NCBI GenBank assembly: GCA_028687645.1 | Contig: JAQTZQ010000025.1 | Location: forward strand, 1-32,554 | Source: Rhodocyclaceae bacterium | GTDB taxonomy: Bacteria; Pseudomonadota; Gammaproteobacteria; Burkholderiales; Rhodocyclaceae | Length of the DNA stretch: 32,554 bases | Direction: 5' to 3' | Shown: positions 1,138 to 23,185 of the stretch, piece by piece | Layout: each line of letters opens with the position of its first letter | Position numbering within the stretch: the first letter of the stretch is position 1 | Made by a program: the position numbers and the translations under genes | The notes under the pieces: model-generated | The model's input: the letters and a program-made list of their open reading frames with translations, nothing else | Told to the model about the DNA's origin: nothing | Databases searched by the model: none

Positions 1138-1151
1138 GTTTCACGTGAAAC
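1138..1151. other. parS-like ParB-binding palindrome (GTTTCACGTGAAAC)
   Basis: The 14-bp core GTTTCACGTGAAAC exactly matches the inner 14 bp of the widely conserved chromosomal parS consensus TGTTNCACGTGNAACA. Only the outermost bases differ (G and G here). It starts 2 nt after the oxyR stop, between convergent oxyR and topB. In RNA, the larger inverted repeat 1135-1145/1151-1161 could form an 11-bp stem with one G-U pair and so might also act as a bidirectional terminator. The parS role is inferred from the motif. Confidence 0.75.
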
Positions 1152-1171
1152 GTGGAACCTCATTGCATCAA

Positions 1172-3691
1172 TCAGGCTTCAGCTTTTTTCTTGGCGGGTG
1201 CTTTGGGCTTGGCTACCTTTTTCTCAAACTCGAAGCTGACCTTGCCTTCCTTGGCGACCAGATAAGCCGAGAATTTGCGGCGCGTTCGGTTGGATACAAA
1301 CTCCTTCAGCAAGTCAGTTTTGCCTTCATTCAGCAATTTTTGCATTTGCGCCGCCTCGATTGGCTGCTGCAAAATGACTTTTCCTGAGCGGAAGTCGCAG
1401 GTTTTGTCTGGGCCAACCGATTTTTCGCAAACGTAGGTATTGCCATGATCGAAGACGCCGGCAGCGCATTTGGGGCATTTGCCCAAATTTTGCTGGCCTG
1501 AAAAATCGACAGGTTCAGCGTTAGCTTCATCTGCCTTGTCCTGCCCAAAATCAAACTCTGGCTCCATTTTTTCATTGAGTTTGATCGCGGCAGCGAAGGT
1601 GCGGCCCATTTTGTTGCGGAAACCGGTCAGTGGGCCGATTTGCTTCTCGTTAATCAGCGTATCGATTTCAGCCGCTTCAAATTGACGCCCGGCAACAATT
1701 TTCCAGAGTGAATAATCGCAACCGGTACACTGGAATTTTTTGTAATTTTCACGAATTTCACTACCGCAACGTGGGCATTTGGCTGTTAAGACACCAAAAT
1801 CACCCGGAATGGTATCGCTATCGAAGGTTTTCGCACGCTCGACCATGTGGCGAGTCATTTCGGCAATTTCCCGCATGAATTCGCTGCGGGTGAAATCACC
1901 CTTCTCGATACGCCCCAGTTTCCATTCCCAGTCGCCAGTCAATTCTGGCTGTGTTAGCTCATTAATACCCAAACCATTGAGCAGGGTCATGAGCGAAAAA
2001 GCTTTCGCTGTTGGAATCAATTCGCGACCTTCGCGCACCATGTATTGCTCACCGATCAGATTTTCGATGATTTGCGCACGCGTCGCTGGTGTGCCAAGAC
2101 CACGGCCTGCCATCGCAGCCTTCAATTCTTCATCATCAACCATCTTGCCGGCGCCTTCCATGGCGGAAAGCAGGGTGGCTTCAGAGTGACGCGGTGGCGG
2201 CTTGGTTTCAGTGGCCTTAATGGTGACGTCTTCAGTTTTTACCTTCTCTCCGGCGTCGACCGCAACAAGATTGCCCTCATTGCCTTCCTGTCCTTCCTTA
2301 CCGTGCACTGCCAGCCAGCCCGGATTAACCAGCACTTTGCCTTCAGTTTTGAAGGGGTGGTTCTCAACGCGGGTGATGCGGGTCGTAACGAGATATTCCG
2401 CAGCCGGGAAAAATACGGAAAGGAAGCGCTTGACGACAAAGTCGTAAAGCTTCTGTTCGATCTCATTGAGGTTCTTGGGTGCCTGTGGTGTTGGGATAAT
2501 CGCGAAGTGGTCACTCACTTTCGCGTTATTGAATATGCGCTTGTTGGGCATCACCCAGTTGCGCGCCAGGATCTGGTGGGCGAAGGGTGAGTAGCGGGCG
2601 AGCAGAACTTCATCGTGACCTTTGCCAGCACCTTCGCCGGTAAGTACCGCCAACGTGGTCTTGACTGTCGGGATGTAATCCTCGGGCAGGCAGCGTGAGT
2701 CGGTACGCGGATAGGTGAGTACTTTGTGCTTTTCGTAGAGTGCCTGAGCAATGCTGAGCGTGGTCTTGGCTGAAAATCCGAAGCGAGCGTTTGCTTCGCG
2801 CTGAAGGCTCGTCAAATCGAAGAGTGCTGGAGAAAGACGGGTTTCCGGCTTGGCTTCTTCGCTGACAATACCTGGCTTGCCCAGGGTTGCTGCACGGATG
2901 ATATCGGCGCGCTTTTCTTCCCAAATGCGGTCAGCACGCGCATGTTCGTCTTCACTCTTGCCCTTGAAGCCCTCGTCAAACCATTTACCGGTGTAATCAC
3001 CGGCTTTGGCCGCAAAACTGGCTTCAACTTCCCAATAGGGACGCGACTTGAATTCACGAATACGCTTTTCGCGTTCAACGACAATCGCCAAGGTTGGGGT
3101 CTGGACGCGTCCAACCGTGGTCAGGTGAAAGCCGCCGGTTTTTGAATTGAAGGCGGTCATCGCCCGCGTGCCATTGATGCCGACCAGCCAATCGGATTCG
3201 GAGCGGCAAACGGCGGCGTCGCCCAGACCTGCCATTTCCTGTCCGGGGCGCAGGCGCGAGAATCCGTCGCGGATTGCACCTTGAGTCATTGATTGCAGCC
3301 ACAGACGCTGCACCGGCTTGGTAGTTTTGCTGTGCTGGGCAATGTAATTAAAGATCAATTCACCCTCACGCCCCGCGTCGCAGGCATTGATCAGGCTTTC
3401 AACATCCTTGCGCTTGATCAGCTTGTTCAATACCTTGAGCCGAGATTCAGTCTTTTCAATCGGTGACAGGGCGAAGTGGGGGGGGATGACCGGCAGATGG
3501 GCGAATGACCATTTCCCGCGCTTGACCTCAAATTCTTCAGGGCAGGAGAGTTCCAGCAGGTGGCCGACCGCGGAGGAGATAACATGAGTGTCACTCTCGA
3601 AGTAGTCGTCGTGCTTGGTAAAGCCGCCCAGCGCCTTGGCGATGTCAGCAGCAACGGAGGGCTTTTCAGCAATAATTAGCTTTTTGGTCAT
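1172..3691 (-). CDS. topB: DNA topoisomerase III (type IA)
   Basis: This 839-residue type IA topoisomerase would pass or decatenate DNA through a transient single-strand break. The Toprim domain starts at LIIAEKPSVA (E9) and contains the acidic cluster C-DAGREGEL at 105-112. The second Asp of the usual DxD is Gly here, a variation I believe occurs in other TopB proteins. The catalytic tyrosine is Y327 in LTYPRTDS, close to Y328 of E. coli TopB. The C-terminal part has a four-Cys zinc motif (CPRCG...CTGC), a second Cys-rich repeat (CPKC...C...C) and a Lys/Ala-rich tail. It is the last gene of the LysM-dprA-topB run, 76 nt after dprA. The length suits TopB, and the LTYPRTDS context argues against TopA. 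Confidence 0.93.
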   Translation of the reverse strand: MTKKLIIAEKPSVAADIAKALGGFTKHDDYFESDTHVISSAVGHLLELSCPEEFEVKRGKWSFAHLPVIPPHFALSPIEKTESRLKVLNKLIKRKDVESLINACDAGREGELIFNYIAQHSKTTKPVQRLWLQSMTQGAIRDGFSRLRPGQEMAGLGDAAVCRSESDWLVGINGTRAMTAFNSKTGGFHLTTVGRVQTPTLAIVVEREKRIREFKSRPYWEVEASFAAKAGDYTGKWFDEGFKGKSEDEHARADRIWEEKRADIIRAATLGKPGIVSEEAKPETRLSPALFDLTSLQREANARFGFSAKTTLSIAQALYEKHKVLTYPRTDSRCLPEDYIPTVKTTLAVLTGEGAGKGHDEVLLARYSPFAHQILARNWVMPNKRIFNNAKVSDHFAIIPTPQAPKNLNEIEQKLYDFVVKRFLSVFFPAAEYLVTTRITRVENHPFKTEGKVLVNPGWLAVHGKEGQEGNEGNLVAVDAGEKVKTEDVTIKATETKPPPRHSEATLLSAMEGAGKMVDDEELKAAMAGRGLGTPATRAQIIENLIGEQYMVREGRELIPTAKAFSLMTLLNGLGINELTQPELTGDWEWKLGRIEKGDFTRSEFMREIAEMTRHMVERAKTFDSDTIPGDFGVLTAKCPRCGSEIRENYKKFQCTGCDYSLWKIVAGRQFEAAEIDTLINEKQIGPLTGFRNKMGRTFAAAIKLNEKMEPEFDFGQDKADEANAEPVDFSGQQNLGKCPKCAAGVFDHGNTYVCEKSVGPDKTCDFRSGKVILQQPIEAAQMQKLLNEGKTDLLKEFVSNRTRRKFSAYLVAKEGKVSFEFEKKVAKPKAPAKKKAEA

Positions 3692-3767
3692 GGATTCTGT
3701 CGGTTAATTCCGGGCGATGATAAGTGCCCGACAAGCGGCTTGGCAAGCGGTGTATCTGTATGGGAAG

Positions 3768-4844
3768 TCAATTGAGGCGCTGGTAGCGGTTGCCGGGTAG
3801 GCTGGCAAGCTGACCGGAAAGTTCCAGTGTCAGCAATTCGCCCAGGAGAAGATCGGCACCCAGGCCAGTGCTTTCAACCAATTCATCGAGTCCGCAGGGG
3901 CCATGGCCGAGTGCTATGAGTACGGGATTGTCGTCGCTGGCGGGGCTGGTGTTATCAGGGCTGACACTTGGTTCAAGTTGCCCAAGTTCTTCCAGGACGT
4001 CATTGGCAGTCTCTACCAACTTGGCACCTTGTCTAATTAATTTATGGCAGCCGCGCGCGACGGGGGAATGAATTGAGCCGGGGATGGCAAACACCTCGCG
4101 CCCTTGTTCGCCTGCCAAACGGGCGGTAATCAAGGAGCCGCTTTCGGTTGCCGCTTCGACAACCAACACGCCGCGCGAGAGCCCGGAAATGATGCGATTG
4201 CGTCTTGGAAAATTAGCAGCGAGCACCGGCGTGCCTAGAGGAAATTCGGAAACGATGGCACCATGCTCGACTATCTGTAGCGCCAAATCCTTGTTGCGTG
4301 CCGGGTAAAGGCGATCTGCGCCGGTACCGATAACGGCGACTGTTCCACCGCCGGCGGATAGTGCGCCCCGATGAGCAGCTGCATCAATTCCCAGTGCGAG
4401 CCCACTGACAATGGTTAGACCTTTGGCAGAGAGCGTTCGGGCAAAATTTTCAGCAGTTTGCAACCCTTGTGGCGTGGCATTTCGGCTTCCTACCATGGCT
4501 AAGCCAGGCTTTTGCAGTAGGGCGGGATTGCCTCGGATATAAAGAACATTGGGTGGATCAGCGATTTCCAGGAGTAATTGCGGGTAGGTGGGGTCAACCA
4601 GGGTGACGATAAATTGGCCGGGCTCGTCGGCCCAGGCGATCGTACGGTCAACCGCTTTTTGGGTATCAAAATCGAAAAGTAGCTCAGCTTTGTTGCCAAT
4701 GACTGCGCGCACTGCGCTACGTTCAGCAGCAAAAATGGCTTCTGGTAAACCGAAAGCGGCGAGAAGCTTTCGCTGCGTCTCGCCGCCAATGCCTGGAATC
4801 AGGGTCAGCCTTAACCAGCTGGCCAACCCTTCAGAGATCTTCAC
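3768..4844 (-). CDS. dprA: DNA processing protein DprA (Smf)
   Basis: This 358-residue DprA homologue would bind incoming single-stranded DNA and load RecA during natural transformation. An N-terminal helix-hairpin-helix-like segment (LIPGIGGETQRKLL) is followed by the Rossmann-like DprA core, with MVGSRNATPQG, IVSGLALGIDAAAH, FPRRNRIISG and the GSLITARLAGEQGR segment. A C-terminal winged-helix-like domain covers about 300-355. The start is a GTG (4844-4842) overlapping the TGA of the upstream LysM gene (GTGA), which implies translational coupling. Many betaproteobacteria have smg (DUF494) after dprA; here the 76-nt gap to topB leaves no room for it. No other competence genes are in the window. 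Confidence 0.95.
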   Translation of the reverse strand: MKISEGLASWLRLTLIPGIGGETQRKLLAAFGLPEAIFAAERSAVRAVIGNKAELLFDFDTQKAVDRTIAWADEPGQFIVTLVDPTYPQLLLEIADPPNVLYIRGNPALLQKPGLAMVGSRNATPQGLQTAENFARTLSAKGLTIVSGLALGIDAAAHRGALSAGGGTVAVIGTGADRLYPARNKDLALQIVEHGAIVSEFPLGTPVLAANFPRRNRIISGLSRGVLVVEAATESGSLITARLAGEQGREVFAIPGSIHSPVARGCHKLIRQGAKLVETANDVLEELGQLEPSVSPDNTSPASDDNPVLIALGHGPCGLDELVESTGLGADLLLGELLTLELSGQLASLPGNRYQRLN

Positions 4845-5857
4845 GGATTGCGTGCTGCGTCGCCGACGATGACCGGCTTCGAGGTTTCAACGACGAGTGC
4901 GTAAGCAACACGATCAAAAACTCGAAATACGAAAGCCAGGGCGTAGCGCTCTTCGGGAATGGAAGTCGTTACCCGGCGGTCATTGTCATCATAGCCCTGA
5001 GAAACCCGGGTACGGAACAATGCGAGGATGTGACCAGGTTCAAGTTCGGCATTTTTGCCCCGACTGATGCTGACGACGGAATATTTACCGGCTTCATTAA
5101 CGCCACCATAGATCGACATCACCTTTGCTTCGACTTGGGCTTCCGGGCGATGCGGGACATAGGAAATCAGGTTGAATGGTGGTGCGGGTACCAAGCGGTC
5201 ACCCCGGCCAATTTCTTCCCTGGCTTCGGTAATGCGCATGACCGCCGGTTCGCCTGCTTGTACCAGCGTAGCACTACCGAGGAAGAAGGCTTCGTGGCCT
5301 ACAATCTCCTGAGTATCAGGGTCTCTCAGCGGTTTGCCAGGACGGTAAACGTGCCAATTCAGAATTTTGGTATCGGGAATGCCGGTCACAAAGCCGGTAT
5401 CGCCAATGCCCATAAATACCCGATCTTCCTGACTGGCAACAAATCTCGGCGCTGCGGCATGTTCGCCAGCTTCGATGACCAAGGGCTTTGAAATAAAAGG
5501 CTCAATGACATTGGCTGGAATGCTGGGGATTTCTTGCTCAATTGCTTCGCTATATATCTTGGGCTGCAGTCCATGTGGTCTGGCAACACGCAAGCGTGGG
5601 CCGCCACGGAAGTCGTCAAGCAGGATGATATCGCCGGGATAAATGAGGTGTGGGTTCTTGATTTGCTCGCGATTCATGCGCCAAACTTCGGGCCAGCGCC
5701 AAGGTTGCTTGAGGAACTTTCCGGAAATACCCCAGAGCGTATCGCCCCGTACGACAATATGCCGGTCAGGGGGATTGTTCACCAGCTGAACGGGTTCGGC
5801 AGCGATGGCGCAGGCAGCCGTTACGGCCAGGATGAGCGCGGATATAATGCGAAGCAT
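4841..5857 (-). CDS. LysM-domain exported protein
   Basis: I choose the ATG at 5857-5855 (338 residues) because GAGGTG (5869-5864) sits 6 nt before it; a GTG three codons upstream would overlap that ribosome binding site. A signal peptide (MLRIISALILAVTAACAIAA) precedes a LysM domain at about 30-80, including VVRGDTLWGISGKFL and NPHLIYPGDIILL, which should bind peptidoglycan. The remaining 250 residues have no catalytic motif I recognise. The family is regularly found just upstream of dprA in betaproteobacteria. Its exact role is unknown; periplasmic wall binding is inferred. It diverges from def. Confidence 0.88.
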   Translation of the reverse strand: MLRIISALILAVTAACAIAAEPVQLVNNPPDRHIVVRGDTLWGISGKFLKQPWRWPEVWRMNREQIKNPHLIYPGDIILLDDFRGGPRLRVARPHGLQPKIYSEAIEQEIPSIPANVIEPFISKPLVIEAGEHAAAPRFVASQEDRVFMGIGDTGFVTGIPDTKILNWHVYRPGKPLRDPDTQEIVGHEAFFLGSATLVQAGEPAVMRITEAREEIGRGDRLVPAPPFNLISYVPHRPEAQVEAKVMSIYGGVNEAGKYSVVSISRGKNAELEPGHILALFRTRVSQGYDDNDRRVTTSIPEERYALAFVFRVFDRVAYALVVETSKPVIVGDAARNP

Positions 5858-5997
5858 AGTCGTCACCTCACGAGCCGGTGGAGCACGGCGCGAAAATTAT
5901 TGTCTGTTCAGACGCGTAAAGCAGTTTCAAAATCTCTGAAATTGCTTAAGATTCTGCATGTAATTACCTAAGCGAGCAAGCTTTTTCCCTATTTAAT
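5858..5997. promoter_or_regulatory. Divergent intergenic region between LysM and def with two inverted repeats
   Basis: This 140-bp gap should hold the promoters for LysM-dprA-topB (minus) and def-fmt (plus). Two inverted repeats are visible. One is GTCTG-TT-CAGAC at 5902-5913. The other is AGCAGTTTCA/TGAAATTGCT at 5920-5929 and 5937-5946 (one mismatch, 7-nt spacer). Either could be an operator. No convincing -35/-10 pair was found by eye. def has no clear Shine-Dalgarno before its ATG at 5998. Confidence 0.4.
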
Positions 5998-6501
5998 ATG
6001 GCCCTTCTACCCATTCTGCGTTTTCCCGATGTCCGCCTTAAAAAAGTAGCGGAGCCGATCATCAAGATCGACGAGAGCATCCGTCAATTAGCCAATGACA
6101 TGGCAGAGACCATGTACGAGGCGCCCGGTATTGGCTTGGCGGCGACTCAGGTCGATGTTCATAAGCAATTGATCATTATTGATGTCTCGGAAGACAAGAG
6201 CGAATTACTGGTCTTCATCAACCCGCGTCTTGAGCATTGTGAAGGTGCTCAACAGGGCGAAGAGGGCTGTCTGTCAGTGCCGGGTATTTATGAAAAGGTT
6301 GAGCGGGCCGAGCGGGTGACGGTGCATTATCTGGATCTGGAGGGACAATCACGTTCGCTAGAGGCAGAGGGTTTGCTGGCGGTTTGTTTGCAACACGAAC
6401 TGGATCACTTGAATGGCAAGGTGTTTGTCGATCATCTGTCACAGCTTAAACAAACGCGGATCAAGAATCGTCTGGCCAAACAGGCGCGGGTGACGGCATG
6501 A
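5998..6501 (+). CDS. def: Peptide deformylase
   Basis: This 167-residue metalloenzyme removes the formyl group from nascent N-formylmethionine. All three signature motifs are present: GIGLAATQ (45-51), EGCLSVP with metal ligand C91, and QHELDHLNG with H133, catalytic E134 and H137. Length matches the E. coli type I enzyme. It overlaps fmt by 4 nt (ATGA at 6498-6501), the common def-fmt pair that balances formylation and deformylation. Confidence 0.97.
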
Positions 6502-7421
6502 AGTTGATTTTTGCCGGAACCCCGGATTTTGCCGCACAGGCATTAGCCGCCATTATTGATGCCGGTCACGAAGTGGCGCTGGTTTTGACGCAACCTGACC
6601 GACCGGCCGGACGCGGTATGGTGTTACAGCCATCCGCAGTTAAAAAAATGGCGCTGGCGCATGGCATTGAGGTTTTTCAGCCGCTGACGCTTAAAGATGC
6701 GGAAGCTCAGGCTCGTTTGGCATCGATCCAGGCTGATGCAATGATCGTCGCAGCTTATGGTTTGATTTTGCCGCAAGTGGCGCTTGATTTGCCGCGCCAT
6801 GGTTGTCTGAACATTCACGCTTCACTGCTACCTCGTTGGCGTGGTGCCGCGCCGATTCAGCGGGCGTTGTTGGCCGGCGATGCCGAAACGGGTGTTTGTA
6901 TTATGCAGATGGAGGCGGGTCTGGATACCGGGCCGGTATTGTTGGAGCGGCGGTTTGCCATCGCCGCCAATGACACGGCAGCTTTTTTGCATGACAGGTT
7001 GGCTGCACTCGGTGCCACGATGGTTGTTGAAATCCTGGGTCAACTACCTGTCAAGGGAGAAGCGCAACCCACTGAGGGCGTGACTTACGCGCACAAGATC
7101 GAAAAGCACGAGGCCTTGATAGATTGGCGCAAGAGTGCTGCGGAACTGGATCGCCATATTCGCGCATTTAATCCTGTCCCTGGTGCCCAAGCCTTGATGC
7201 ATGGGCAAATCGTCAAACTGTGGCAGGCGACGCCGGTTCTCGGCAACGGTGAAATTGGCACCATTTTGGCGGTTGACCGTAAGCACCTGATCGTCGCGTG
7301 CGGTGAGGGGGCTTTGGCGGTGAATGAGTTACAGAAATCGGGGGGCAAGCGATTGCCGGTGCAACAGTTTCTGGCTGGGAATGACCTGAAGGTGGGCGAT
7401 CGTTTCGATCTGTCAGCCTGA
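6498..7421 (+). CDS. fmt: Methionyl-tRNA formyltransferase
   Basis: This 307-residue enzyme transfers a formyl group from 10-formyl-THF to initiator Met-tRNA. The N-terminal formyltransferase domain has the substrate loop QPDRPAGRG (32-40), the catalytic triad N105/H107 in [17 protein letters not shown] and D143 in MEAGLDTGP. The C-terminal oligonucleotide-binding-like domain covers about 205-305. The start overlaps the def stop, so coupled translation is expected. It is convergent with speD, only 2 nt separating the two stop codons, and no terminator hairpin is evident between them. Confidence 0.97.
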
Positions 7422-7423
7422 TT

Positions 7424-7801
7424 TCAGCGCAGTTGGCCACGCAGCACGCGTTGGGTATTTTTTTGTGTTGGTGCAAACTGGTCAATCACTTCGTCGAATA
7501 AGGCGTGGGCGAGGGTGCTGTTGTCGGCGCTGAAGTTGCAGACGTAAACATCCAGCGTCACGCCGGAAATCTCCGGCCAGGTATGGATGGCAAGATGGGA
7601 TTCGGCCAATACCACGGTGCCGGTGACGCCGGCGGGCTGTCCGTTGGCATCAATAAACGGGTGAAATAGCTGGCCGACGACAGTCAGTCCGTGTCGTTTG
7701 CAGGCGCCCACACAAAACTCGGCCAACCCTGCCGCATCGTGCAGTAGCGGAAGAGGGCATTGGCAGCCGTGGAGATCGGCGATCAGGTGCAGGCCATTCA
7801 T
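7424..7801 (-). CDS. speD: S-adenosylmethionine decarboxylase proenzyme
   Basis: This 125-residue small prokaryotic AdoMet decarboxylase supplies decarboxylated AdoMet for spermidine synthesis. The self-cleavage site is AES68H within LAESHLAIHTWPE; S68 would become the pyruvoyl group. H73 and C88 match the proton donor and catalytic cysteine of the Thermotoga maritima enzyme (S63, H68, C83), each shifted by five. A spermidine synthase gene is not adjacent. It follows the nuclease gene by 12 nt on the same strand. A parS-like palindrome lies 17-36 nt upstream of its ATG, in the shared junction. Confidence 0.95.
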   Translation of the reverse strand: MNGLHLIADLHGCQCPLPLLHDAAGLAEFCVGACKRHGLTVVGQLFHPFIDANGQPAGVTGTVVLAESHLAIHTWPEISGVTLDVYVCNFSADNSTLAHALFDEVIDQFAPTQKNTQRVLRGQLR

Positions 7802-7813
7802 GATTTGACCATT

Positions 7814-8695
7814 CTATGGCGTTCCACGTGGAACGCCAGCACCCCAGATATTTTCCAGCAGGTGACCCAGGCGAAAGCCGGCATCAACAATTCGCTGTTC
7901 GGTAATCCTGTTGGCCTGACGGTGAAAATCTTCGTTAATGCTTGGTAGCAAACTACCTGCAGTGCTCGGGTAGGCGTGCGCCAGCAAACGAAGGCTTTCA
8001 CTACGCCAGATGCGGACAGTGGCCGGCTTGGGTGGCGGGTGGCTCGCTATCAGTCGGTTCGCTTTTTGCGTCAGGCGCTTACCTCGTAGCCAGGGTGGCC
8101 CGGGCAAATCGTCCCAATAGGTGTGCAAGCTGGAAAAGGGTAGGCGGTGATTGTATGGATTTTCAATTTCAAACGCATTGCCACCGTTGTCGTCATACTG
8201 ACCCACATGCAAGGGCTGGTGGATGTCGCCGACGAGATGCAGAAGCCAGGGTAGCGCGTAATATATTTGCTCGATTTTTGCCGTTGACCGCAACAAGTGA
8301 CTGAATTCTTCAATTTTTTGGTCAAGCAAGCCGGCTTTGACGCTGCCGTCGCTATTGAGATTGACGAAATGCCAGTTTTTGTGACGTCTATTGTCCGCCA
8401 AGCCCGGGATTGGCGGTGTTTTGCCCAATTCTTCATGAAAGCGTGGGTCGTTGCGAATATCGTCGGGCCAGGTTGAGGCTTCGGCAAAAATTGCCGAAGC
8501 TTGCGTCGACTTGGCTTTTTGCAACCAGCGCTCATAGTCGGGATGCTTGGCCAGGATTTCCGCAATGTGCTGCTGCGTCGGTAGCGACAACTGTTGCCAA
8601 GCGATAATAGCCGTCAATCGATGTCCAGCAGCATTCCAGGCATGGCTCACGGGAGCCGCCAAGCTGAGTAATAGCGCAAGCAAGAGTTGTTTCAT
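7814..8695 (-). CDS. Secreted S1/P1-type zinc nuclease
   Basis: The chosen ATG (8695-8693) gives 293 residues with a signal peptide cut after A19, leaving W20 as the mature N-terminus, which this family needs as a zinc ligand. The other expected ligands are all visible: H25, D78, H109, H153 and D157 and H163 in HLVGDIHQPLH, and H191 and D195 in HTYWDD. It should therefore be an active trinuclear zinc phosphodiesterase in the periplasm or outside the cell, acting on single-stranded DNA or RNA and perhaps 3'-nucleotides. An upstream in-frame ATG at 8749 would hide the signal peptide and overlap rsmB. It is probably co-transcribed with speD and divergent from rsmB. Confidence 0.92.
   Translation of the reverse strand: MKQLLLALLLSLAAPVSHAWNAAGHRLTAIIAWQQLSLPTQQHIAEILAKHPDYERWLQKAKSTQASAIFAEASTWPDDIRNDPRFHEELGKTPPIPGLADNRRHKNWHFVNLNSDGSVKAGLLDQKIEEFSHLLRSTAKIEQIYYALPWLLHLVGDIHQPLHVGQYDDNGGNAFEIENPYNHRLPFSSLHTYWDDLPGPPWLRGKRLTQKANRLIASHPPPKPATVRIWRSESLRLLAHAYPSTAGSLLPSINEDFHRQANRITEQRIVDAGFRLGHLLENIWGAGVPRGTP
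7818..7837. other. parS-like 20-bp perfect palindrome
   Basis: GGC-GTTCCACGTGGAAC-GCC is a perfect 20-bp palindrome whose inner 14 bp fit the parS core GTTNCACGTGNAAC. It encodes the last few residues (G-V-P-R-G-T-P) of the S1/P1 nuclease and also forms the immediate upstream region of speD. ParB binding is inferred from the motif. Confidence 0.75.
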
Positions 8696-8729
8696 GTGTC
8701 CATTATGCCGCGTGCGATAATCGCGGCCT

Positions 8730-9989
8730 ATGTCCAATCTTGCCCCCACTTCCCTGGCTTACGCCTTGCTGCACGCAGCAAAAGCGAGCGCTTCCGTTTT
8801 CAATGGTCAAAGCTTGGCCGAGAATCTTTTGACCAAGGTTGATCCGCTGGCTCGGCCAGCAGTGCAGGATCTGCTGTACAACAGCTTGCGCCGCTACGGT
8901 TGGGGTGATTTCATTCTCGCCCGGCTGATGGAGCGACCGCTTGACGTGCCTGAAATCAGGGCTTTGCTACTGGTTGCGCTGGCTCGCCTGGAGGCCCGTC
9001 CGGAAGCGACGCATACGACGGTTGATCAGGCGGTATTGGCGGCTGGCGAGTTGATTGATGGCCGTTTGCGTGGCCTGGTCAATGCGGTGTTGCGCAACTA
9101 TTTGCGGCGCCGGGAAGATTTGGCGCAGGCCGTCGCTGCTAATGACGTTGCCACCCATCAACACCCCGGCTGGTGGCTGGAGGCCTTGCGCGCCGCCTGG
9201 CCCAATGACTGGCAAAGCATTGCGTCGGCTGGTAACCAACCACCACCGATGGCTTTGCGGGTCAATCAGCGGCGCGTCTCGCCAGAGACCTATCTGGCAC
9301 AGTTGGAGGCCGCCGAGATTCCCGCACGGCGGGATGTGCAGGACGCCATTCTGCTGGACAAGCCGGTGCCGGTAGAGCGTCTGCCGGGTTTTGCCGAAGG
9401 CTTGGCTTCGGTTCAAGACCCCGGCGCACAACGGGCGGCGTTCCTGCTTGACCCGGCACCGGGTAGCCGGGTGCTCGACGCCTGTGCTGCACCCGGCGGC
9501 AAGGCCGCGCATTTGCTGGAACGTGCCGATCTTGATCTGGTGGCCCTCGACCTCAAGCCGCCACGTTGTCGACGGATTGAAGAAAACCTGGCAAGACTGG
9601 GGTTGACCGCAACCATCAAGGTGGCCGATTGCATCAAGAAAGATACCTGGTGGGATGGCCAGCTATTTGACGCCATTCTGGCCGACGTACCGTGCACCGC
9701 CAGTGGTGTTGTGCGGCGCAATCCTGATGCCAAGTGGCTGCGTCGCTTCGATGATATTGCCAGTTTTTCGGCCACTCAGTCACGCATGCTCGACGCGCTG
9801 TGGCTGTGTTTACGCCCCGGCGGTAAGCTGCTTTACGCCACCTGTTCCGTGTTTGCAGCAGAAAATACCGGGCAAATTTCGCAGTTTCTAAAGCGCCAAC
9901 CCAAAGCGCGACGCATCTCCGAGGAGCAGTTATTACCCGCTGCCGACCATGATGGCTTTTTTTACTGTCTGCTTGAAAAGCGTGACTAA
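8730..9989 (+). CDS. rsmB: 16S rRNA (cytosine-967-C5)-methyltransferase
   Basis: This 419-residue enzyme methylates C967 of 16S rRNA. The N-terminal NusB-like RNA-binding domain covers about 1-135 and includes VNAVLRNYLRR. The catalytic domain has AdoMet motif I VLDACAAPGGKAAHL (248-262), an Asp-containing VALDLKP, and two cysteines: C322 in DVPCTASGVVRRNPD and C372 in LLYATCSVF. These match C325 and C375 of E. coli RsmB, of which the latter is the nucleophile. It starts 34 nt from the divergent nuclease start and opens the rsmB-DUF4390-ntrYX-trkAH run. Confidence 0.96.
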   Translation: MSNLAPTSLAYALLHAAKASASVFNGQSLAENLLTKVDPLARPAVQDLLYNSLRRYGWGDFILARLMERPLDVPEIRALLLVALARLEARPEATHTTVDQAVLAAGELIDGRLRGLVNAVLRNYLRRREDLAQAVAANDVATHQHPGWWLEALRAAWPNDWQSIASAGNQPPPMALRVNQRRVSPETYLAQLEAAEIPARRDVQDAILLDKPVPVERLPGFAEGLASVQDPGAQRAAFLLDPAPGSRVLDACAAPGGKAAHLLERADLDLVALDLKPPRCRRIEENLARLGLTATIKVADCIKKDTWWDGQLFDAILADVPCTASGVVRRNPDAKWLRRFDDIASFSATQSRMLDALWLCLRPGGKLLYATCSVFAAENTGQISQFLKRQPKARRISEEQLLPAADHDGFFYCLLEKRD

Positions 9990-10563
9990 ACGTCTGCGGG
10001 CTTTTCTTCTCGCTAGCCTGCTGCTGATCCCAAGCTTGCTTTGGGCGGCTGAGATCGAGGTCGTCAATCCGCAAATTTCGGTGACCGAAGATGGCTATGT
10101 ACTGGCCGCCGATTTTAATTTCGAGTTCAACGAACGTCTCGAAGAGGCCGTGACCAAAGGCGTCGTACTCTACTTTGTTGCTGACTTTGAGTTGACCAAG
10201 CCGCGCTGGTACTGGTTGGAGGAAAAGTCAGCAACGCGTAGCCAGACGTTTCGCCTGTCTTATCACGCCTTGACGCGCCAATATCGCCTGACGACGGGAG
10301 GTTTGCACCAGAGCTTTTCTTCGCTGACAGATGCTTTGCTGGTGTTCTCACGCATCCGTGGCTGGCTGGTGGTTGAAAAAGGCGACAAGGCGGTACGTCC
10401 GGGTGAGCCTTACGAGGCGCGTTTGCGGCTGCGCCTGGATTTGAATCAGTTGCCCCGCCCCTTCCAGATCAGCGCCCTGAGTACTAAAGACTGGAGTTTG
10501 GCCTCCGAATGGAAAGCCTGGAGCATCACGCTGCCACCTCTTAACGTGGCGGAAGTCAAGTGA
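9982..10563 (+). CDS. DUF4390 family membrane-anchored or exported protein
   Basis: I choose the GTG at 9982, which overlaps the last codons of rsmB and starts with MTKRLRAFLLASLLLIPSLLWAA, a good signal peptide or membrane anchor. An ATG at 9949 would add 11 residues before it. The mature part (193 residues in total) is a beta-rich domain with no catalytic motif. It matches the DUF4390 family, commonly found between rsmB and ntrY in betaproteobacteria. Its last codon overlaps the GTG of ntrY. The constant position suggests a role with the NtrY sensor, perhaps as a periplasmic accessory, but this is inference. Confidence 0.85.
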   Translation: MTKRLRAFLLASLLLIPSLLWAAEIEVVNPQISVTEDGYVLAADFNFEFNERLEEAVTKGVVLYFVADFELTKPRWYWLEEKSATRSQTFRLSYHALTRQYRLTTGGLHQSFSSLTDALLVFSRIRGWLVVEKGDKAVRPGEPYEARLRLRLDLNQLPRPFQISALSTKDWSLASEWKAWSITLPPLNVAEVK

Positions 10564-13959: not shown

Positions 13960-13985
13960 ATGACGCATCGCAGCTAGGGGAAAGC

Positions 13986-15419: not shown

Positions 15420-15429
15420 GGCGTAGACC

Positions 15430-16884: not shown

Positions 16885-16896
16885 CCTGAGCTTGAT

Positions 16897-16918
16897 AAAG
16901 GCGGATAATCCCGCCTTT
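16897..16918 (+). terminator. Hairpin after trkH (weak intrinsic terminator candidate)
   Basis: AAAGGCGG-ATAATC-CCGCCTTT forms an 8-bp stem with a 6-nt loop, starting 12 nt after the trkH stop and ending 23 nt before hemE. Only the Ts of the stem itself supply a short U-run, so termination may be partial and hemE may be read through. Confidence 0.55.
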
Positions 16919-16941
16919 GCGAATTTCTGGCGGAGTACCCC

Positions 16942-18009
16942 GTGAGCCGACCCAAGAACGATACCTTCCTGCGCGCCCTGTTGAAGGAGCCGACCGAATA
17001 CACCCCACTCTGGCTGATGCGCCAGGCTGGCCGCTATTTGCCCGAATACTGCGCGACGCGCAAACGCGCCGGCAACTTCCTCAACCTGTGCAAATCACCG
17101 ACCATGGCCTGCGAAGTGACCTTGCAGCCTTTGGCCCGTTACGATCTGGATGCTGCGATTCTGTTTTCCGACATCCTGACCGTACCCGATGCGATGGGCC
17201 TTGGCCTCTATTTTGCCGAAGGTGAGGGACCAAAATTCGAGCGCCCGTTGCGTGAAGAATGGGCGATCAACGACCTGACGGCGCCCGATCCCTACGACCA
17301 TCTGCGTTATGTCATGGATGCCGTCTCGGAAATCCGCCGCGCGCTGGATAACTCAGTGCCGCTGATCGGTTTTTCCGGCAGCCCGTACACCCTCGCTTGC
17401 TACATGGTTGAAGGCGAAGGTTCGAGCGATTTCCGCAACATCAAGGGCATGCTCTACAACCGCCCGGACTTGTTGCACCGCATTCTCTCAGTAACGGCTG
17501 ACTCGGTGATTTCCTACCTCAACGCGCAGATTGAATGTGGCGCGCAGGCGGTGATGATTTTTGATACCTGGGGCGGCTCGCTGTCCAACGCGGCGTACGA
17601 AGAGTTTTCGCTGCAATACATGCGCCGTATCGTCGCTGGACTGACCAAGGAAAAAGATGGCGAGCGCATTCCCTGCATCGTGTTCACCAAAAATGGTGGC
17701 CTGTGGCTGGAAAAGATTGCCGATATCGGCTGCGATGCCGTCGGTCTCGACTGGACCATCGACATCGGCGAAGCCCGTCGCCGGGTCGGTGACAAGGTGA
17801 CCTTGCAAGGCAACCTTGACCCCAACGTGCTGTTTGCCGGGCCAGAAATCGTTGCTGCCGAAGCCCGGAAGGTGCTCGATAGTTTTGGGCCGGGCAATAC
17901 CGGCCACGTTTTCAATCTCGGTCATGGTATTTCCCAATTTACTCCGCCTGATAGCGTCACAGCGCTGGTTGAAACGGTGCATTCGCATAGCCGTCTATTA
18001 CGAAAGTAA
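16942..18009 (+). CDS. hemE: Uroporphyrinogen decarboxylase
   Basis: This 355-residue cytosolic enzyme removes four carboxyl groups from uroporphyrinogen III to give coproporphyrinogen III in haem synthesis. The N-terminal signature [14 protein letters not shown] and the second signature region with [17 protein letters not shown] are intact, as is the C-terminal VFNLGHGI motif. Length equals E. coli HemE (354). The start is a GTG at 16942 preceded by GGAG 6 nt upstream. Confidence 0.97.
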
Positions 18010-18017
18010 TTAATTTG

Positions 18018-18061
18018 TTGAAAGGCAAAGCTTGACTTATTCACACGGTTTTGCCTTTCAA
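18018..18061. repeat. 12-bp inverted repeat downstream of hemE
   Basis: TTGAAAGGCAAA (18018-18029) and TTTGCCTTTCAA (18050-18061) are exact inverted repeats with a 20-nt loop that contains the TTATTCACA box. It starts 8 nt after the hemE stop. The stem is A+T rich and is followed by TAAAAATATT and not a T-run, so a terminator role is possible but not typical. Confidence 0.5.
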
Positions 18062-18132
18062 TAAAAATATTTACCGAAAACTGGTTGACAGATTGTTAGA
18101 TGTTTAACTATCTGATTTTAAAAGAATAGTTG

Positions 18133-18155
18133 CTTTGCTTAATATTTCAGCAAAG
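18133..18155. repeat. Short inverted repeat in AT-rich hemE-priA gap
   Basis: CTTTGCT (18133-18139) and AGCAAAG (18149-18155) form a 7-bp stem with a 9-nt A+T loop. Function is unknown. It lies between the AT-rich stretch and the downstream DnaA-box-like cluster. Confidence 0.35.
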
Positions 18156-18306
18156 TGACAAAATCCTTTATCGGCGGATACTTAGCGCCATACCGCAAAA
18201 GAAATCCACAAAGTTATCCACAGATTTTGTGGACAACCCACAAAGCGCTGATGACTTAAGGCCTTGCGAGTGATTTTCGAGAATTGACGGCTACGACTGC
18301 CCCTAA

Positions 18307-20289
18307 ATGACTGTATTGCGCGTCGCTCTCGATCTGCCCTTGCATCGATTATTTGATTATTCGGCAACTGAAATCTCAGCCGCTGATATTGGCCTGCGCG
18401 TTCGTGTGCCTTTTGGTCGGGGCGAGCGCATAGGCGTCATTGTCGACATCTCCGAATCCAGCGACTGGCCGTTAGAGCAAATCAAGCCAGCGGGAGAAGT
18501 GCTGCGCGATATCGCGCCGTTGCCCGCTGATTTTTTCGCACTTTGTACTTTCGCCAGCACCTATTATCAGGCGCCGTTGGGCGAAGTCATCATGCAAGGC
18601 TTACCGGTTGGCCTCAAGCGACTTGACCCACCTGATCGGCGCAAGGTGCGAGCAACGCGGTCGCCAGCCCAAACCCCTCAGCCAGCGCTGACCGCCGAGC
18701 AAACCAGTGTGCTGGCGGCGATGGATCTAAACACCGGGTTTTCAGCGCATTTATTGCATGGCGTGACGGGGAGCGGCAAGACAGAGGTGTATTTGCGCCT
18801 GATCGAGCGGGCCTTGGCCGACGGCAAGCAGGTGTTGCTGCTGGTGCCGGAAATTAATCTGACGCCACAACTGGAGGGCCGGGTTCGCTCGCGCTTCCCG
18901 GATACCGAGGTCGTTTCCCTGCATAGTGATCTGGCCGAGGCGGCGCGCGAACGTAATTGGCGCTCGGCTTTTGCAGGTGATGCGAGCATTGTTCTAGGCA
19001 CCCGGTTGGCGATTTTCACGCCGATGCCGCGCCTTGGTTTGATTGTGATTGATGAGGAGCACGATCAATCCTTCAAGCAACAGGATGGCATGCGTTATTC
19101 GGCGCGCGATGTCGGTGTTTTCCGGGCGCATCAACTGGGCATTCCCATTTTGTTAGGTTCGGCGACACCTTCGCTGGAATCCTGGGGTAATGCGCTGCAC
19201 AAGCGCTACAAGCTGCTGAATTTGAAGGAGCGCGCCAATCCGCAGGCTACTTTGCCGATGGTCAAGGTGCTGGATACGCGGAAAATGGCGCTCAAGGAAG
19301 GGGTTAGCGAACCCTTGATTGCGGCCATCACGGAGCGCCTTGCGCGCGGTGAGCAGAGTCTGGTTTTCCTCAATCGGCGTGGTTACGCGCCGGTGTTGGC
19401 TTGTACGGCCTGTGGCTGGGTCTCGCGCTGTACGCGCTGTGCGGCCAATATGGTGTTGCATCTGGCCGATCGCCTGTTGCGCTGCCACCATTGCGGCTTG
19501 GAGCATCGCATCCCGAAAGCCTGCCCGACCTGCGGCAATCAGGATATTCACCCCTTTGGACGCGGCACGCAGCGCCTCGAAGGTTGGCTACAGGAGGCTT
19601 TCCCCGAGGCGCGAATTTTGCGCGTTGACCGCGACTCGGTGAAAAGTCGCAAGCAATGGGAGGCCATGCTGGAGCGCATTCACGGCGGCGAGGCGGATAT
19701 TCTGGTTGGCACGCAAATGTTGGCCAAGGGCCATGATTTCCCCAAATTAACCCTGGTTGGCGTCCTCGGCGCCGATGCGGCGCTGTTTGCCGCCGACTGG
19801 CGCGCGCCGGAACGACTTTTTGCCCAGTTGATGCAAGTCGCTGGTCGTGCTGGCCGCGCTGAGTTGAAGGGCGAGGTGCTGGTTCAGACCCAATACCCGG
19901 ATCACTCGCTTTATGCGGCTTTGGTCGCCCACGACTATCCCGGCTTTGCCGCCACTTTACTCAAGGAGCGCGAGCAGGCCGGCTTTCCGCCTTACGCTTT
20001 TCAGGCCATGCTGCGGGCTGAAGCGCCGGCGATGGCTGATTCAATTGCCTTTCTTGAGGCAGCGGCTGAATTGCCGGTGATTGCCGAGCATCCGAATGTG
20101 ATGATTTACGATGCCATCCCGATGAAAATGTCGCGCCTGGCGAATCTGGAACGTGGCCAGTTGCTCGCTGAATCGGCCTCACGCCCCGCAATGCAGGCCT
20201 TTTTGCCGCGTTGGCGCGAGGCGATTGAGGCTTTGAAGTCACCGTCAAAATTACGCTGGCACATTGAGGTCGATCCGCTGGAGTTTTAA
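18307..20289 (+). CDS. priA: Primosomal protein N' (replication restart helicase PriA)
   Basis: This 660-residue 3'-5' helicase reloads the replicative helicase at stalled forks. It has an N-terminal DNA-binding domain (about 1-110), Walker A HGVTGSGKTEVY (P-loop 152-159) and DEEH (249-252). Eight zinc-binding cysteines, C366, C369, C375, C378, C393, C396, C406 and C409, are inserted between the helicase lobes. Motifs V and VI follow, including GTQMLAKGHDFPKLTLV and QVAGRAGR. It is about 70 residues shorter than E. coli PriA (732), but all motifs are present. No clear Shine-Dalgarno precedes the ATG. Its upstream region contains the DnaA-box-like cluster. Confidence 0.95.
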   Translation: MTVLRVALDLPLHRLFDYSATEISAADIGLRVRVPFGRGERIGVIVDISESSDWPLEQIKPAGEVLRDIAPLPADFFALCTFASTYYQAPLGEVIMQGLPVGLKRLDPPDRRKVRATRSPAQTPQPALTAEQTSVLAAMDLNTGFSAHLLHGVTGSGKTEVYLRLIERALADGKQVLLLVPEINLTPQLEGRVRSRFPDTEVVSLHSDLAEAARERNWRSAFAGDASIVLGTRLAIFTPMPRLGLIVIDEEHDQSFKQQDGMRYSARDVGVFRAHQLGIPILLGSATPSLESWGNALHKRYKLLNLKERANPQATLPMVKVLDTRKMALKEGVSEPLIAAITERLARGEQSLVFLNRRGYAPVLACTACGWVSRCTRCAANMVLHLADRLLRCHHCGLEHRIPKACPTCGNQDIHPFGRGTQRLEGWLQEAFPEARILRVDRDSVKSRKQWEAMLERIHGGEADILVGTQMLAKGHDFPKLTLVGVLGADAALFAADWRAPERLFAQLMQVAGRAGRAELKGEVLVQTQYPDHSLYAALVAHDYPGFAATLLKEREQAGFPPYAFQAMLRAEAPAMADSIAFLEAAAELPVIAEHPNVMIYDAIPMKMSRLANLERGQLLAESASRPAMQAFLPRWREAIEALKSPSKLRWHIEVDPLEF

Positions 20290-20298
20290 CGGCACGAC

Positions 20299-20331
20299 CC
20301 TTGCTGTGATGTCTTCCCAATCACTGCAAGG
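20299..20331 (+). promoter_or_regulatory. Hairpin overlapping the Shine-Dalgarno of the EF-hand-like gene
   Basis: CCTTGCTGTGAT (20299-20310) and ATCACTGCAAGG (20320-20331) pair over 12 positions with a single T-T mismatch, closing a 9-nt loop. The 3' arm includes the first four bases of the AAGGAG ribosome binding site (20328-20333) for the gene starting at 20340. The fold would compete with ribosome binding. It could instead be a priA terminator, but no U-tract follows. Confidence 0.5.
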
Positions 20332-20339
20332 AGATGAGC

Positions 20340-21323
20340 ATGAGAGTTGCTGAATCGACGGTGGCACTATCGGCCAGCCACGAGGCGGAGCGTAGTCAGA
20401 GCACTGAAATCACCCTGGAACGGGGCTTCCGGCAGATTTTTGAAACCATGGCCAGTGATGAACCCGAGAGCCAGAACGCGCAGCGCGAGCGGGTGGTGAA
20501 ACTGCTGCAATCGCTGGTCGATGCCATCATGGCGGCAATGGATGGCAAAACCCATCCGGTAAAGTTTGCCGCCGAAGATATCTCTTCCGGCGCATCGCCC
20601 AAGCTGCCCAGTGGGCGTGAGCTGAGTTGGCAGCAAAAAATGACCGAGACGATCACCGAGTTTGAAAAAACCACAGTGTGCGGCAATGGCCGGGTCAAGA
20701 CTTGCGATGGGCGGGAAATCGACTTCAGCTACGCGGTCGACATGGCGCGTGAATTCAAAAGTGAGAAAGTTTTTGAGGATTCCGGAACAGTCGTATTGCG
20801 CGATCCGCTGGTCTTGAATTTTGACGGCAAGGCGGCTGAGCTGACGGATGCCCGGCAGAGTTTTGATCTGGATTCCGACGGCAAGCTGGAGAGCATTCCC
20901 GGTTTGGCGGCCAGTAGTGGCTTTCTGGTTTTTGACCGTAACGGCAATGGCAAGGCTGACAATGGCAGTGAGTTGTTCGGCGCCACAAGCGGTAACGGCT
21001 TTGCCGATTTGGCAGCGCTGGATGGTGACCATAACGGCTGGATTGACGAGGGCGATCCGCTGTTTTCACAACTGGCTGTATGGTCAGGTGATTCGTGGAG
21101 CTCGCTGGCCGCGCGCGGGGTTGGTGCGCTGTATACCGGTGCGGTCGACGCGCCTTTTAGCCTGAAAAATGCAGCCAATGGTTTGCTCGGTGAAATCCGT
21201 GCAGCAGGGATTTATCTCAACGAATCAGGTTCGGTGGGCGGCATGCAACAGGTAGATCTGGCCGTATCAGCTTTGCCGGACGGGGCGCAGCAGCCAGAGA
21301 AAAGCGAGAAACTGGCCGCCTGA
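20340..21323 (+). CDS. Cytoplasmic protein with EF-hand-like calcium loops, function unknown
   Basis: AAGGAG is directly adjacent to an ATG at 20334 but 6 nt from the ATG at 20340, so I use the latter (327 residues). There is no signal peptide or membrane segment. The N-terminal half (1-150) is charged and partly helical. The second half has three DxDxDG-type loops: FDLDSDGKLE (175-184), FDRNGNGKADNGSELFG (198-214) and LDGDHNGWIDEGD (227-239). The closing region GIYLNESGSVGGMQQVDL resembles uncharacterised bacterial proteins of similar layout that I recall from Pseudomonas and relatives. Calcium binding is inferred from the Asp/Asn spacing. The 3' end overlaps the convergent MFS gene by 57 bp. 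Confidence 0.8.
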   Translation: MRVAESTVALSASHEAERSQSTEITLERGFRQIFETMASDEPESQNAQRERVVKLLQSLVDAIMAAMDGKTHPVKFAAEDISSGASPKLPSGRELSWQQKMTETITEFEKTTVCGNGRVKTCDGREIDFSYAVDMAREFKSEKVFEDSGTVVLRDPLVLNFDGKAAELTDARQSFDLDSDGKLESIPGLAASSGFLVFDRNGNGKADNGSELFGATSGNGFADLAALDGDHNGWIDEGDPLFSQLAVWSGDSWSSLAARGVGALYTGAVDAPFSLKNAANGLLGEIRAAGIYLNESGSVGGMQQVDLAVSALPDGAQQPEKSEKLAA

Positions 21324-22484
21324 AAGGGTATAAAAGGCGGCGCGGAAAGCGGCGTCGCCTGACCATCCGCTGGCTTGCAGGGCATCAACCAGCACACCGA
21401 TGCCCCATTGCAGGCCAAACGCACCGGCAAAGGCCAGCAGGTTGAGGGCGGTATTAGCGCGCCCGGAAAGCGCCGGTGGGAAGGCGTGCGCAACCAGTGA
21501 ATAGGAAATATTGGAGAGCGAAAAGCAGGCGCCGAGGATGGGCCACAGCCAGGCGCTGGCCATGCTCGGCTGAGTGGTCAACGTGAGCAGGATACTGACG
21601 CCGAGCAGCATCGCCCACAGATAGACCTTTTCCAGCTTGATGCCGCGCCGCACCAGCGCCGTAGCGAAGAAACCCATGAACAGGAAGCCGGCCAGCATGG
21701 CGCCGCTGATCCAGGTCAGGCGGGCGGCAATTGCGCTGGAATCGAGGCCTTCCATAACAGTCATCCAGCGCGAGACCCAAAGCCCTTGAACGGCCATGAA
21801 GCCGCCGGTGAACCAGAAGCCCATCGGCGCATAACGCCAGAAATGAGCGCTGGTAAAGATGGCTTTGACGCCCGCCATCTGCGCGGCAAACCCGGTACCT
21901 TTGTCTTCGTTGGCCTTGTCCGGCACAAAAAACCACAGGGCGGCGGCGACGGCCACCGTGCATGCTGCCAGCAAGAGTGCCAGTTCGCGCCAGGTGGCAA
22001 TACCCAGCGCCATTTCCAGGGGTTTTGAAGCGGCCAACGCACCGAGGCCTCCAGCCGCCATGATCCAGCCGGTCAATGAAGCCAGACGTTCCGGCGGGAA
22101 CCATTGAGAGAAGGCTTTGAACGAGGCCATCAGGCAGGCGGAAACGCCGAGGCCGATTAACGCACGGCCAGTCGCCAGACCGCCAAGCGTATCCGATAGG
22201 GCAAAAATGGCCGCGCCACTGGCGGCAATCAGCAATAAGCCGGCTTCAACCCGGCGTGGGCCAAAGCGGTCAAGCAACATGCCCAGCGGCAACTGGGCGG
22301 CGCCGAAGGCGAGGAAATAGGTGCTGGTCAGCAAGCCGAGGGCGTTATCGCCGAGCGAGAGTTCGTGCGCTAAAACCGGGCCAATAACGGCGTTGACCGT
22401 ACGATACAGGTAGGACAAAAAATAGCCGGCGGCAAAGGGCAGAAACAGGCGCAGTATCAGTTGGCGGGGATCGGGGGCACTCAT
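21267..22484 (-). CDS. Major facilitator superfamily transporter
   Basis: The start at 22484 (405 residues) overlaps the stop of the MOSC gene (ATGA). A longer form from 22553 would lie inside that gene. About twelve hydrophobic segments are seen. The MFS loop 2-3 signature is present as LPLGMLLDRFGPRRVEAG and the N-terminus reads FLPFAAGYFLSYLYRTVNAV. The substrate cannot be told from sequence. It is the last gene of a tightly packed four-gene run with the methyltransferase-like, fructokinase and MOSC genes, so it may export or import a compound handled there. Confidence 0.88.
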   Translation of the reverse strand: MSAPDPRQLILRLFLPFAAGYFLSYLYRTVNAVIGPVLAHELSLGDNALGLLTSTYFLAFGAAQLPLGMLLDRFGPRRVEAGLLLIAASGAAIFALSDTLGGLATGRALIGLGVSACLMASFKAFSQWFPPERLASLTGWIMAAGGLGALAASKPLEMALGIATWRELALLLAACTVAVAAALWFFVPDKANEDKGTGFAAQMAGVKAIFTSAHFWRYAPMGFWFTGGFMAVQGLWVSRWMTVMEGLDSSAIAARLTWISGAMLAGFLFMGFFATALVRRGIKLEKVYLWAMLLGVSILLTLTTQPSMASAWLWPILGACFSLSNISYSLVAHAFPPALSGRANTALNLLAFAGAFGLQWGIGVLVDALQASGWSGDAAFRAAFYTLSGGQFLAFLWLLRPVRQS

Positions 22485-23185
22485 GGCGTGTTTGGTTTCA
22501 CATGAAACAGTGGTAAGGGCGGTAGCGGTTGGCCCGGCTGTTGGCGCAGCCATTGCGTACGGTCAAGAATTTTACGTTGCCAATGGCTGGCGATGCCGGG
22601 GGTGGCGGCGAGTTGTTCCAGTTCGCTGACCGCCGGACGATGGACTTGCCACAAGGCCATGGCGGCGGCCAGCGTCGGGGCGCCAATGGCCGCGACATCG
22701 AGTTCGAGAGGTTCATCGGGGCGCACCTGACCGCTTTGTAGCACCCGCCAATACCAGCCAGTCAAGGCTTGTTCGGCAATAAAGGCAGCCATGCCTTCGG
22801 CGTTGAAGCGCTCATCAATTTTCCAGCAGGGATTGCGTGGCTGGCAGACCTGGAGGCGCGCCTCACCGAGGCGATAAATGTCGCCGATGCGTACCGAGTG
22901 CTCATCGAGATCGGCGGTTGACAAGTTTTCACCGAGGCTACCGGGGATGAGCTGGCTGGCCGCGTCCGGGAAGCGCGCAGCGAGTTTGGCGTAGTGGGTT
23001 GCCGGGTAGAGGTGTACCGCTTTTTCCGGCCCACCGTGGACGCGGCGATCAGCCTGCTGGTCGCCGATAAAACCTTCAGGGCCGATTTCGAGCGGGCCAA
23101 ATACCTGCTGTTTGAACATGCCCGTCGGGCGTCCGGAATTGGGGAGGGCGGAGATGCTGCCGATAAAAATGATCACGTTTGCCAT
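22481..23185 (-). CDS. MOSC domain protein, YiiM-like
   Basis: This 234-residue protein has the MOSC core: RVHGGPEKAVHLYP, GSLGENLST, and VCQPRNPCWKID with the conserved Cys. A YiiM-type C-terminal helical extension follows. MOSC proteins handle molybdenum cofactor sulfur or reduce N-hydroxylated compounds; YiiM acts with the cofactor on N-hydroxylated substrates such as 6-hydroxylaminopurine. Whether this one does so is inference. A parS-like site (22495-22508) overlaps its last codons. It lies 18 nt after the fructokinase gene and overlaps the MFS start. Confidence 0.88.
   Translation of the reverse strand: MANVIIFIGSISALPNSGRPTGMFKQQVFGPLEIGPEGFIGDQQADRRVHGGPEKAVHLYPATHYAKLAARFPDAASQLIPGSLGENLSTADLDEHSVRIGDIYRLGEARLQVCQPRNPCWKIDERFNAEGMAAFIAEQALTGWYWRVLQSGQVRPDEPLELDVAAIGAPTLAAAMALWQVHRPAVSELEQLAATPGIASHWQRKILDRTQWLRQQPGQPLPPLPLFHVKPNTP
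22495..22508. other. parS-like site with one central mismatch
   Basis: GTTTCACATGAAAC differs from the parS core GTTTCACGTGAAAC by one base (G to A in the centre), and the 3' flanking A also matches the 16-bp consensus. It overlaps the codons for F-H-V-K-P at the 3' end of the MOSC gene. Weaker support than the two perfect palindromes. Confidence 0.45.

Follow-up and report, generated by a model that had tools for sequence, protein, structure and literature searches.

Three palindromes resembling parS, the site at which ParB loads, lie close together in a 32,554-nt stretch of DNA from a Rhodocyclaceae bacterium (the window), and one of them has an altered centre. Do they mark an origin-proximal ParB-loading region, as an earlier note on this DNA had claimed, and what has become of the altered site? 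A motif search of the window recovered all three, with the core GTTNCACGTGNAAC matched exactly at 1138-1151 (site A, GTTTCACGTGAAAC) and 7821-7834 (site B, GTTCCACGTGGAAC) and with one mismatch at 22495-22508 (site C, GTTTCACATGAAAC). The sole mismatch of site C falls in the central CG, which reads CA, giving a CACATG centre and leaving 22495 without an exact core. When the motif was extended to its 16-bp form, TGTTNCACGTGNAACA, the outer T/A proved incomplete at sites A, B and C, which are flanked by g..g, c..g and g..a, respectively. The positions of the sites relative to genes are as previously described. Site A starts 2 nt past the stop (1136) of a LysR-family regulator gene (165-1136, + strand; best model OxyR, under its curated cut-off), in the space between this gene and the convergent topB for DNA topoisomerase III (1172-3691, - strand; above cut-off), and these two genes served as its anchors. 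Site B occupies the final codons of an ORF (7814-8749, - strand; NCBIfam match none) that we take to encode an S1/P1-type nuclease, and was anchored by the neighbouring adenosylmethionine decarboxylase gene (7424-7801, - strand; slightly above cut-off). Site C lies in the final codons of a presumed MOSC-domain ORF (22481-23185, - strand; best match 6-hydroxyaminopurine reductase, under cut-off) and upstream of an MFS transporter gene (21267-22475, - strand; every model match under cut-off), whose likely start at 22475 is downstream of the site. Window gene names that lack a family match are our presumption from the sequence. Adjoining site A is an extra half-site, GTGGAAC, which forms a two-mismatch match overlapping the site (1145-1158, GTTTCACGTGAAACGTGGAAC); none is found beside the printed site A copies of relatives. 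The ParB of P. aeruginosa is reported to bind a half-parS (PMC7022226).

Within the window alone, the four matches at up to two mismatches are moderately unusual, as 4 of 100 shuffles also reach four (mean 1.26). The picture is clearer in the whole genome, a draft of 4.28 Mb in 310 contigs (99.74% complete) of which the window is contig C126. Here we counted eight exact cores, compared with none for a reversed-pattern control and 0.26 expected from 4^12 (Poisson P ~4e-10). Within the genus, 58 of 60 genomes, our own included, have exact sites, as do 40 of the 41 of good quality; four of the 60 give a control match, one apiece. With one mismatch allowed, the genome-wide count (16) is at background level (control, 15). 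Site C can therefore not be claimed from the motif alone, and the case for it rests on orthology to exact sites of relatives.

To place the sites relative to dnaA, we used as reference frame three single-contig congeners (G029, G046 and G038), in which the DnaA match begins at base 13. All exact sites of these genomes are near the origin (12/12, 12/12 and 5/5, respectively), the 29 together falling between -66 and +145 kb relative to dnaA (-65.5 to +144.2). Distances in our own, fragmented assembly were assigned by synteny. By protein order against the relatives, its eight exact sites, spread over seven contigs, all map between about -53 and +94 kb, namely at about -42 to -53 kb (C59), -38, -22 and +3 kb, at sites A and B, and at +47 to +55 and +87 to +94 kb, the values depending on the relative. 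The gene order of the window, LysR-topB-def-fmt-rsmB-ntrY-ntrX-murB, recurs at about +17 to +53 kb from dnaA in the three congeners, with local gaps (a close copy of a 1191-aa kinase is absent there in G046 and G038, and the comparison gave no match for trkA-trkH in G038). Records labelled Azonexus, Dechloromonas and Rhodocyclaceae are among the best 80 loci from an NtrY protein search. One-mismatch sites of the four genomes map near the origin in 10 of 17 cases (own 4/8, G029 4/5, G046 2/3, G038 0/1), at least one of which, at -78 kb, is a coding coincidence. The earlier note had named even genome-wide scatter of the motif as one outcome that would speak against an origin-proximal ParB-loading region. 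No such scatter was seen: the exact sites, both our own and those of relatives, cluster around dnaA, and synteny thus supports the proposed region of predicted sites.

The sites are also conserved at fixed gene positions. We surveyed 84 sequences (80 loci, three relatives and the window), among which the anchor genes were found in 33 for site B, 22 for site C and 61 for site A (topB). For site A, 55 of the 61 topB loci were left out as having no LysR gene, two of them nonetheless carrying an exact site; among the six loci with both flanking genes, window included, five are exact, and the site is absent in G038. Site B has an exact core at 29 of 33 loci (window included) and one mismatch at two, and it is lost in two, L048 and L050. 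The place of site C is occupied by an exact core in 16 of 22 loci, by a one-mismatch copy in three (including the window) and by a two-mismatch copy in one, with two losses. Counting distinct rows with at most two mismatches (31 for B, 20 for C; losses omitted), identity in the specified core columns is 0.94-1.0 at B and 0.85-1.0 at C, compared with an average of 0.56-0.73 in the 30-base flanks, and at B and C alike position N is variable on one side or both. A further position, at +73.8 kb, is exact in G029, G046 and G038 and reads GATTCACGTGGAAC in our own genome (C39:6773, L146). Judged by these orthologues, it is a second ancestral site that has changed in our genome.

A matching protein partner is encoded in the genome. 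There is one ParB match above the curated cut-off (C148:11861-12400), and upstream of it lie a ParA-like gene (models under cut-off) and the genes for RsmG/GidB and MnmG/GidA (both above cut-off). In the complete relatives, parB is 81-92 kb from dnaA, on the side opposite to the three sites. The Noc model TIGR04285 (209 bits; cut-off 315) outscores the general ParB model (193.5 bits), and among solved structures the best relatives are chains of the ParB family, Spo0J and ParB, with Noc chains scoring lower. Noc and its NBS sites provide an apt comparison, as Noc is a ParB paralogue that reads a related palindrome, its specificity altered by few residues; NBS depart from parS at positions 1 and 6 of the half-site, and the residues equivalent to 173 and 201 are Q and R in Noc (PMC7383237). 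Numbering the specificity residues by anchoring the alignment on R, T, A and G, we found that our ParB keeps R173 and G201 (Caulobacter numbering), the criterion for preferring parS over NBS and a pair described as conserved in all extant ParB orthologues (PMC7383237). At half-site positions 1 and 6, the window cores have G and A instead of the A and C of NBS, and the ParB has R/G in place of Q173/R201. Our ParB further has L at 179, Q at 184 and H in place of Q162, positions 179 and 184 being variable among ParBs (PMC7383237).

A part of the earlier claim that held less well concerns gene borders, at which selection was said to place the sites. Of 37 site copies, 21 are at gene borders, as opposed to 14% of random positions: 11 lie within 30 bases of a gene 3' end, 9 are intergenic, 1 is at a start and 16 are inside genes, the corresponding shares of random positions being 3.9, 6.5, 3.5 and 86.1%. 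When copies were grouped into 15 distinct positions, 7 are at borders (P ~0.002); the grouping is our own, and the borders come from a home-made gene caller based on codon usage, with uncertain starts. Of the 8 positions within 45 kb of dnaA (G029-like coordinates), a cut chosen post hoc, 7 are at borders. The enrichment at borders stands, but the other eight of the 15 positions are counted as inside coding sequence, which the sites do not avoid.

These findings bear on two other accounts of the palindromes. One is that they are chance matches in a 4.3-Mb genome, and the shuffles of the window that equal its four loose matches would allow this; but against 0.26 exact cores expected there are eight, at positions conserved across species, and the likelihood of this account is practically negligible. 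For the exact sites, chance is ruled out by the control count, the origin clustering and the cross-species conservation. The other account, that the palindromes form no centromere and are targets of a transcription factor with GTTNCACGTGNAAC among its recognition sequences, could draw on the location of site C upstream of the MFS gene start and on the several sites at gene borders. Yet about half of the positions are within coding sequence, the sites cluster around dnaA, and the motif is the known target of a protein, ParB, that the genome encodes, making a transcription factor very improbable. We therefore consider it close to certain, judging from sequence and gene order, that the three sites belong to the chromosomal ParABS centromere of an Azonexus/Dechloromonas-type betaproteobacterium. 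By analogy with the family, ParB would load at parS, clamp and slide along the DNA with CTP, and the ParB complex would be moved by ParA and would recruit SMC, such that the newly copied origin region would segregate first.

Several origin-proximal parS sites are found in Bacillus subtilis, Pseudomonas aeruginosa, Caulobacter and on chromosome 1 of Burkholderia cenocepacia. With these chromosomal ParABS systems, the present one shares the 14-bp core, the type of ParB, the clustering near oriC and the location of parAB beside gidAB, whereas its details differ in the eight exact sites, the incomplete outer T/A and at least one CACATG-centred site. The cluster itself is thus ordinary, representing a known kind of chromosomal ParABS, and it supplies reference positions for the centromere of the genus.

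The CACATG centre of site C is less ordinary. A central CG is present in all six parS sequences studied in PMC5450999. In the same work, symmetrical changes to Burkholderia parSc1, described there as canonical for single-chromosome genomes, abolish binding except at pairs 1-16 and 5-12, none of the one-arm changes listed with high remaining binding is at the centre, and a half-parSc1 retains 49% of the binding score. Neither a chromosomal parS with a CACATG centre, in titles and abstracts, nor the literal 14-mer of site C was found in our literature search, in which subscription papers are sparsely represented. Going by its orthologues, site C is a changed copy of an ancestral parS, with the central CG turned into CA. 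The change has probably weakened the site, which may still load ParB because one half-site is intact, and the parSc1 data cited above fit a weakened, perhaps not dead, site.

How often does this variant centre occur elsewhere? Matches were found in 20 of 76 genomes of the genus, 16 of which have a single one. Leaving aside one genome, G045, there are 22 matches, of which we compared 18 besides the window's own. Twelve are the -78 kb site, two are, like site C, at canonical parS positions (+87 kb in G006 and site A in G032), three are at -58.8 kb (G000, G007 and G001), where G029 and G046 carry one-mismatch copies with the canonical centre and where coding constraint may be at work, and one is a second G006 match without an assigned place. 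The remaining three are in G065, G029 (-87 kb) and G074. The -78 kb site, GTTCCACATGAAAC, present in G029 (L173, around 1674) and 11 further genomes, was rejected as a conserved variant parS: its flanks are equally conserved and it encodes V-S-C-G-T-C on the other strand, according to a translation read by eye. Because this site is a coding coincidence, conservation of a single variant site proves no function. G032 has no canonical parS and one CACATG site, at site A (contig C102, L189), an absence that is not separable from missing contigs because this genome is 83% complete, in 410 contigs; G009 has two canonical sites. Across 395 genomes of the family (22 of them of the genus, G045 excluded), the variant centre reaches a maximum of three matches per genome, as does the control.

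G045 stands apart from these genomes. In this assembly (99% complete, ~4.2 Mb; relevant loci on contigs C5, C8, C16, C39 and C55, L160-L170) there are no canonical parS sites, and 12 one-mismatch sites, against six for the control, of which ten are CACATG-centred and two are not. Six of the ten occupy positions at which relatives have exact sites: dnaN/gyrB, A, B, C, +51 kb and -38 kb. The other four comprise the -58.8 kb site, the coding coincidence, a match on the dnaA contig for which no orthologue was found and one on C16 without an assigned place. At +73.8 kb, G045 has a different change, GTTTCACGGGGAAC, in its -65.5 kb neighbourhood no site was found, and for -14 kb there was no convincing neighbourhood. 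The eight canonical positions located within the 241 kb fetched (-22, -8.9, +87, +99 and +144 kb lie outside it) thus hold no canonical site, six CACATG sites in both orientations, one other change and one loss; a CATATG centre occurs at none of the sites in the stretches fetched. A global loss or miscall of CACGTG, for example by methylation-related sequencing error or restriction avoidance, is unsupported: the 241 kb contain 23 CACGTG, none in the context TTNCACGTGNAA, and counts without exact parS are 22 in 260 kb for G029, 14 in 220 kb for G046, 14 in 180 kb for G038 and 12 in 207 kb for our own genome.

In a tree of DnaA and ParB from nine genomes, G045 groups with G030 and G044 (support 0.998). 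As these two keep canonical sites (12 and 14, respectively), the state of G045 is most simply derived. Its parB adjoins parA, gidB and gidA, and its ParB differs at four residues from one common to the eight others in the set. Three of these are in the DNA-binding region, at Caulobacter-equivalent positions 156 (D to Q), 180 (L to M) and 225 (S to T). M180 is also present in Caulobacter ParB, so this residue alone does not make a switch. All five solved chains with printed alignments have S at position 225, and position 223, G or S in 11 other aligned ParBs, is E in G045. We infer that 223 and 225 are at the start of helix alpha-8, which contributes to the DNA interface (PMC7383237). On these data, the parS centre may have changed across the whole lineage of G045, a new lead that the parSc1 binding data make unexpected.

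Site C might instead be a decaying relic, unused by ParB and no longer a parS, a reading to which we assign a likelihood a little below even. The parSc1 work favours a relic insofar as symmetrical changes outside pairs 1-16 and 5-12 abolish binding and no one-arm centre change is among those reported to keep high binding (PMC5450999), and other decays are seen at site C orthologues (GTTTCGCGTGGAAC in L048 and L050). Against this, G045 has the CACATG centre at the same position and at five further canonical ones, site C keeps 11 of 12 specified bases and one whole half-site, and half of parSc1 retained 49% of the binding score. We lean, if slightly, toward a ParB-parS code that is drifting at its dyad within the genus: the G045 lineage would have rewritten most of the located CACGTG centres to the asymmetric CACATG, with a co-evolved ParB, and 22495 would represent the same step at a single site, a tolerated intermediate. 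Our confidence in such a switch is lowered because one located position is otherwise changed and one is lost. The move of a parS set to another base has a precedent in Pseudomonas, whose parS (TGTTCCACGTGGAACA) shows a genus-wide shift at positions 5-12 (PMC5450999). That shift, however, is symmetrical and at the free position N, whereas at 22495 and in G045 it is the central dinucleotide that has changed, and the site loses its symmetry. Chromosomal parS is considered almost invariant, and since sites and protein have to change in step, a DNA code spread over many sites is difficult to alter; a natural switch, if true, would matter more than the cluster itself. With G030 and G044 on the old code and single sites in our own genome at what would be the intermediate state, a protein-first order of events could be tested against a sites-first one.

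Two minor observations concern other parts of the region. One-mismatch sites of the form GTTTCACG[CG]GAAAC occur in our own genome (C89:6219), in G029 (C1:129928) and in G046 (C1:133773), the first two near +130 kb, and may reflect either coding constraint or a weak parS. Finally, the 1191-aa protein encoded at 25151-28726 of the window is a hybrid sensor kinase; G029 has a copy at the same place that is 59% identical, and the best matches in G046 and G038 sit elsewhere, at 36-39% identity.
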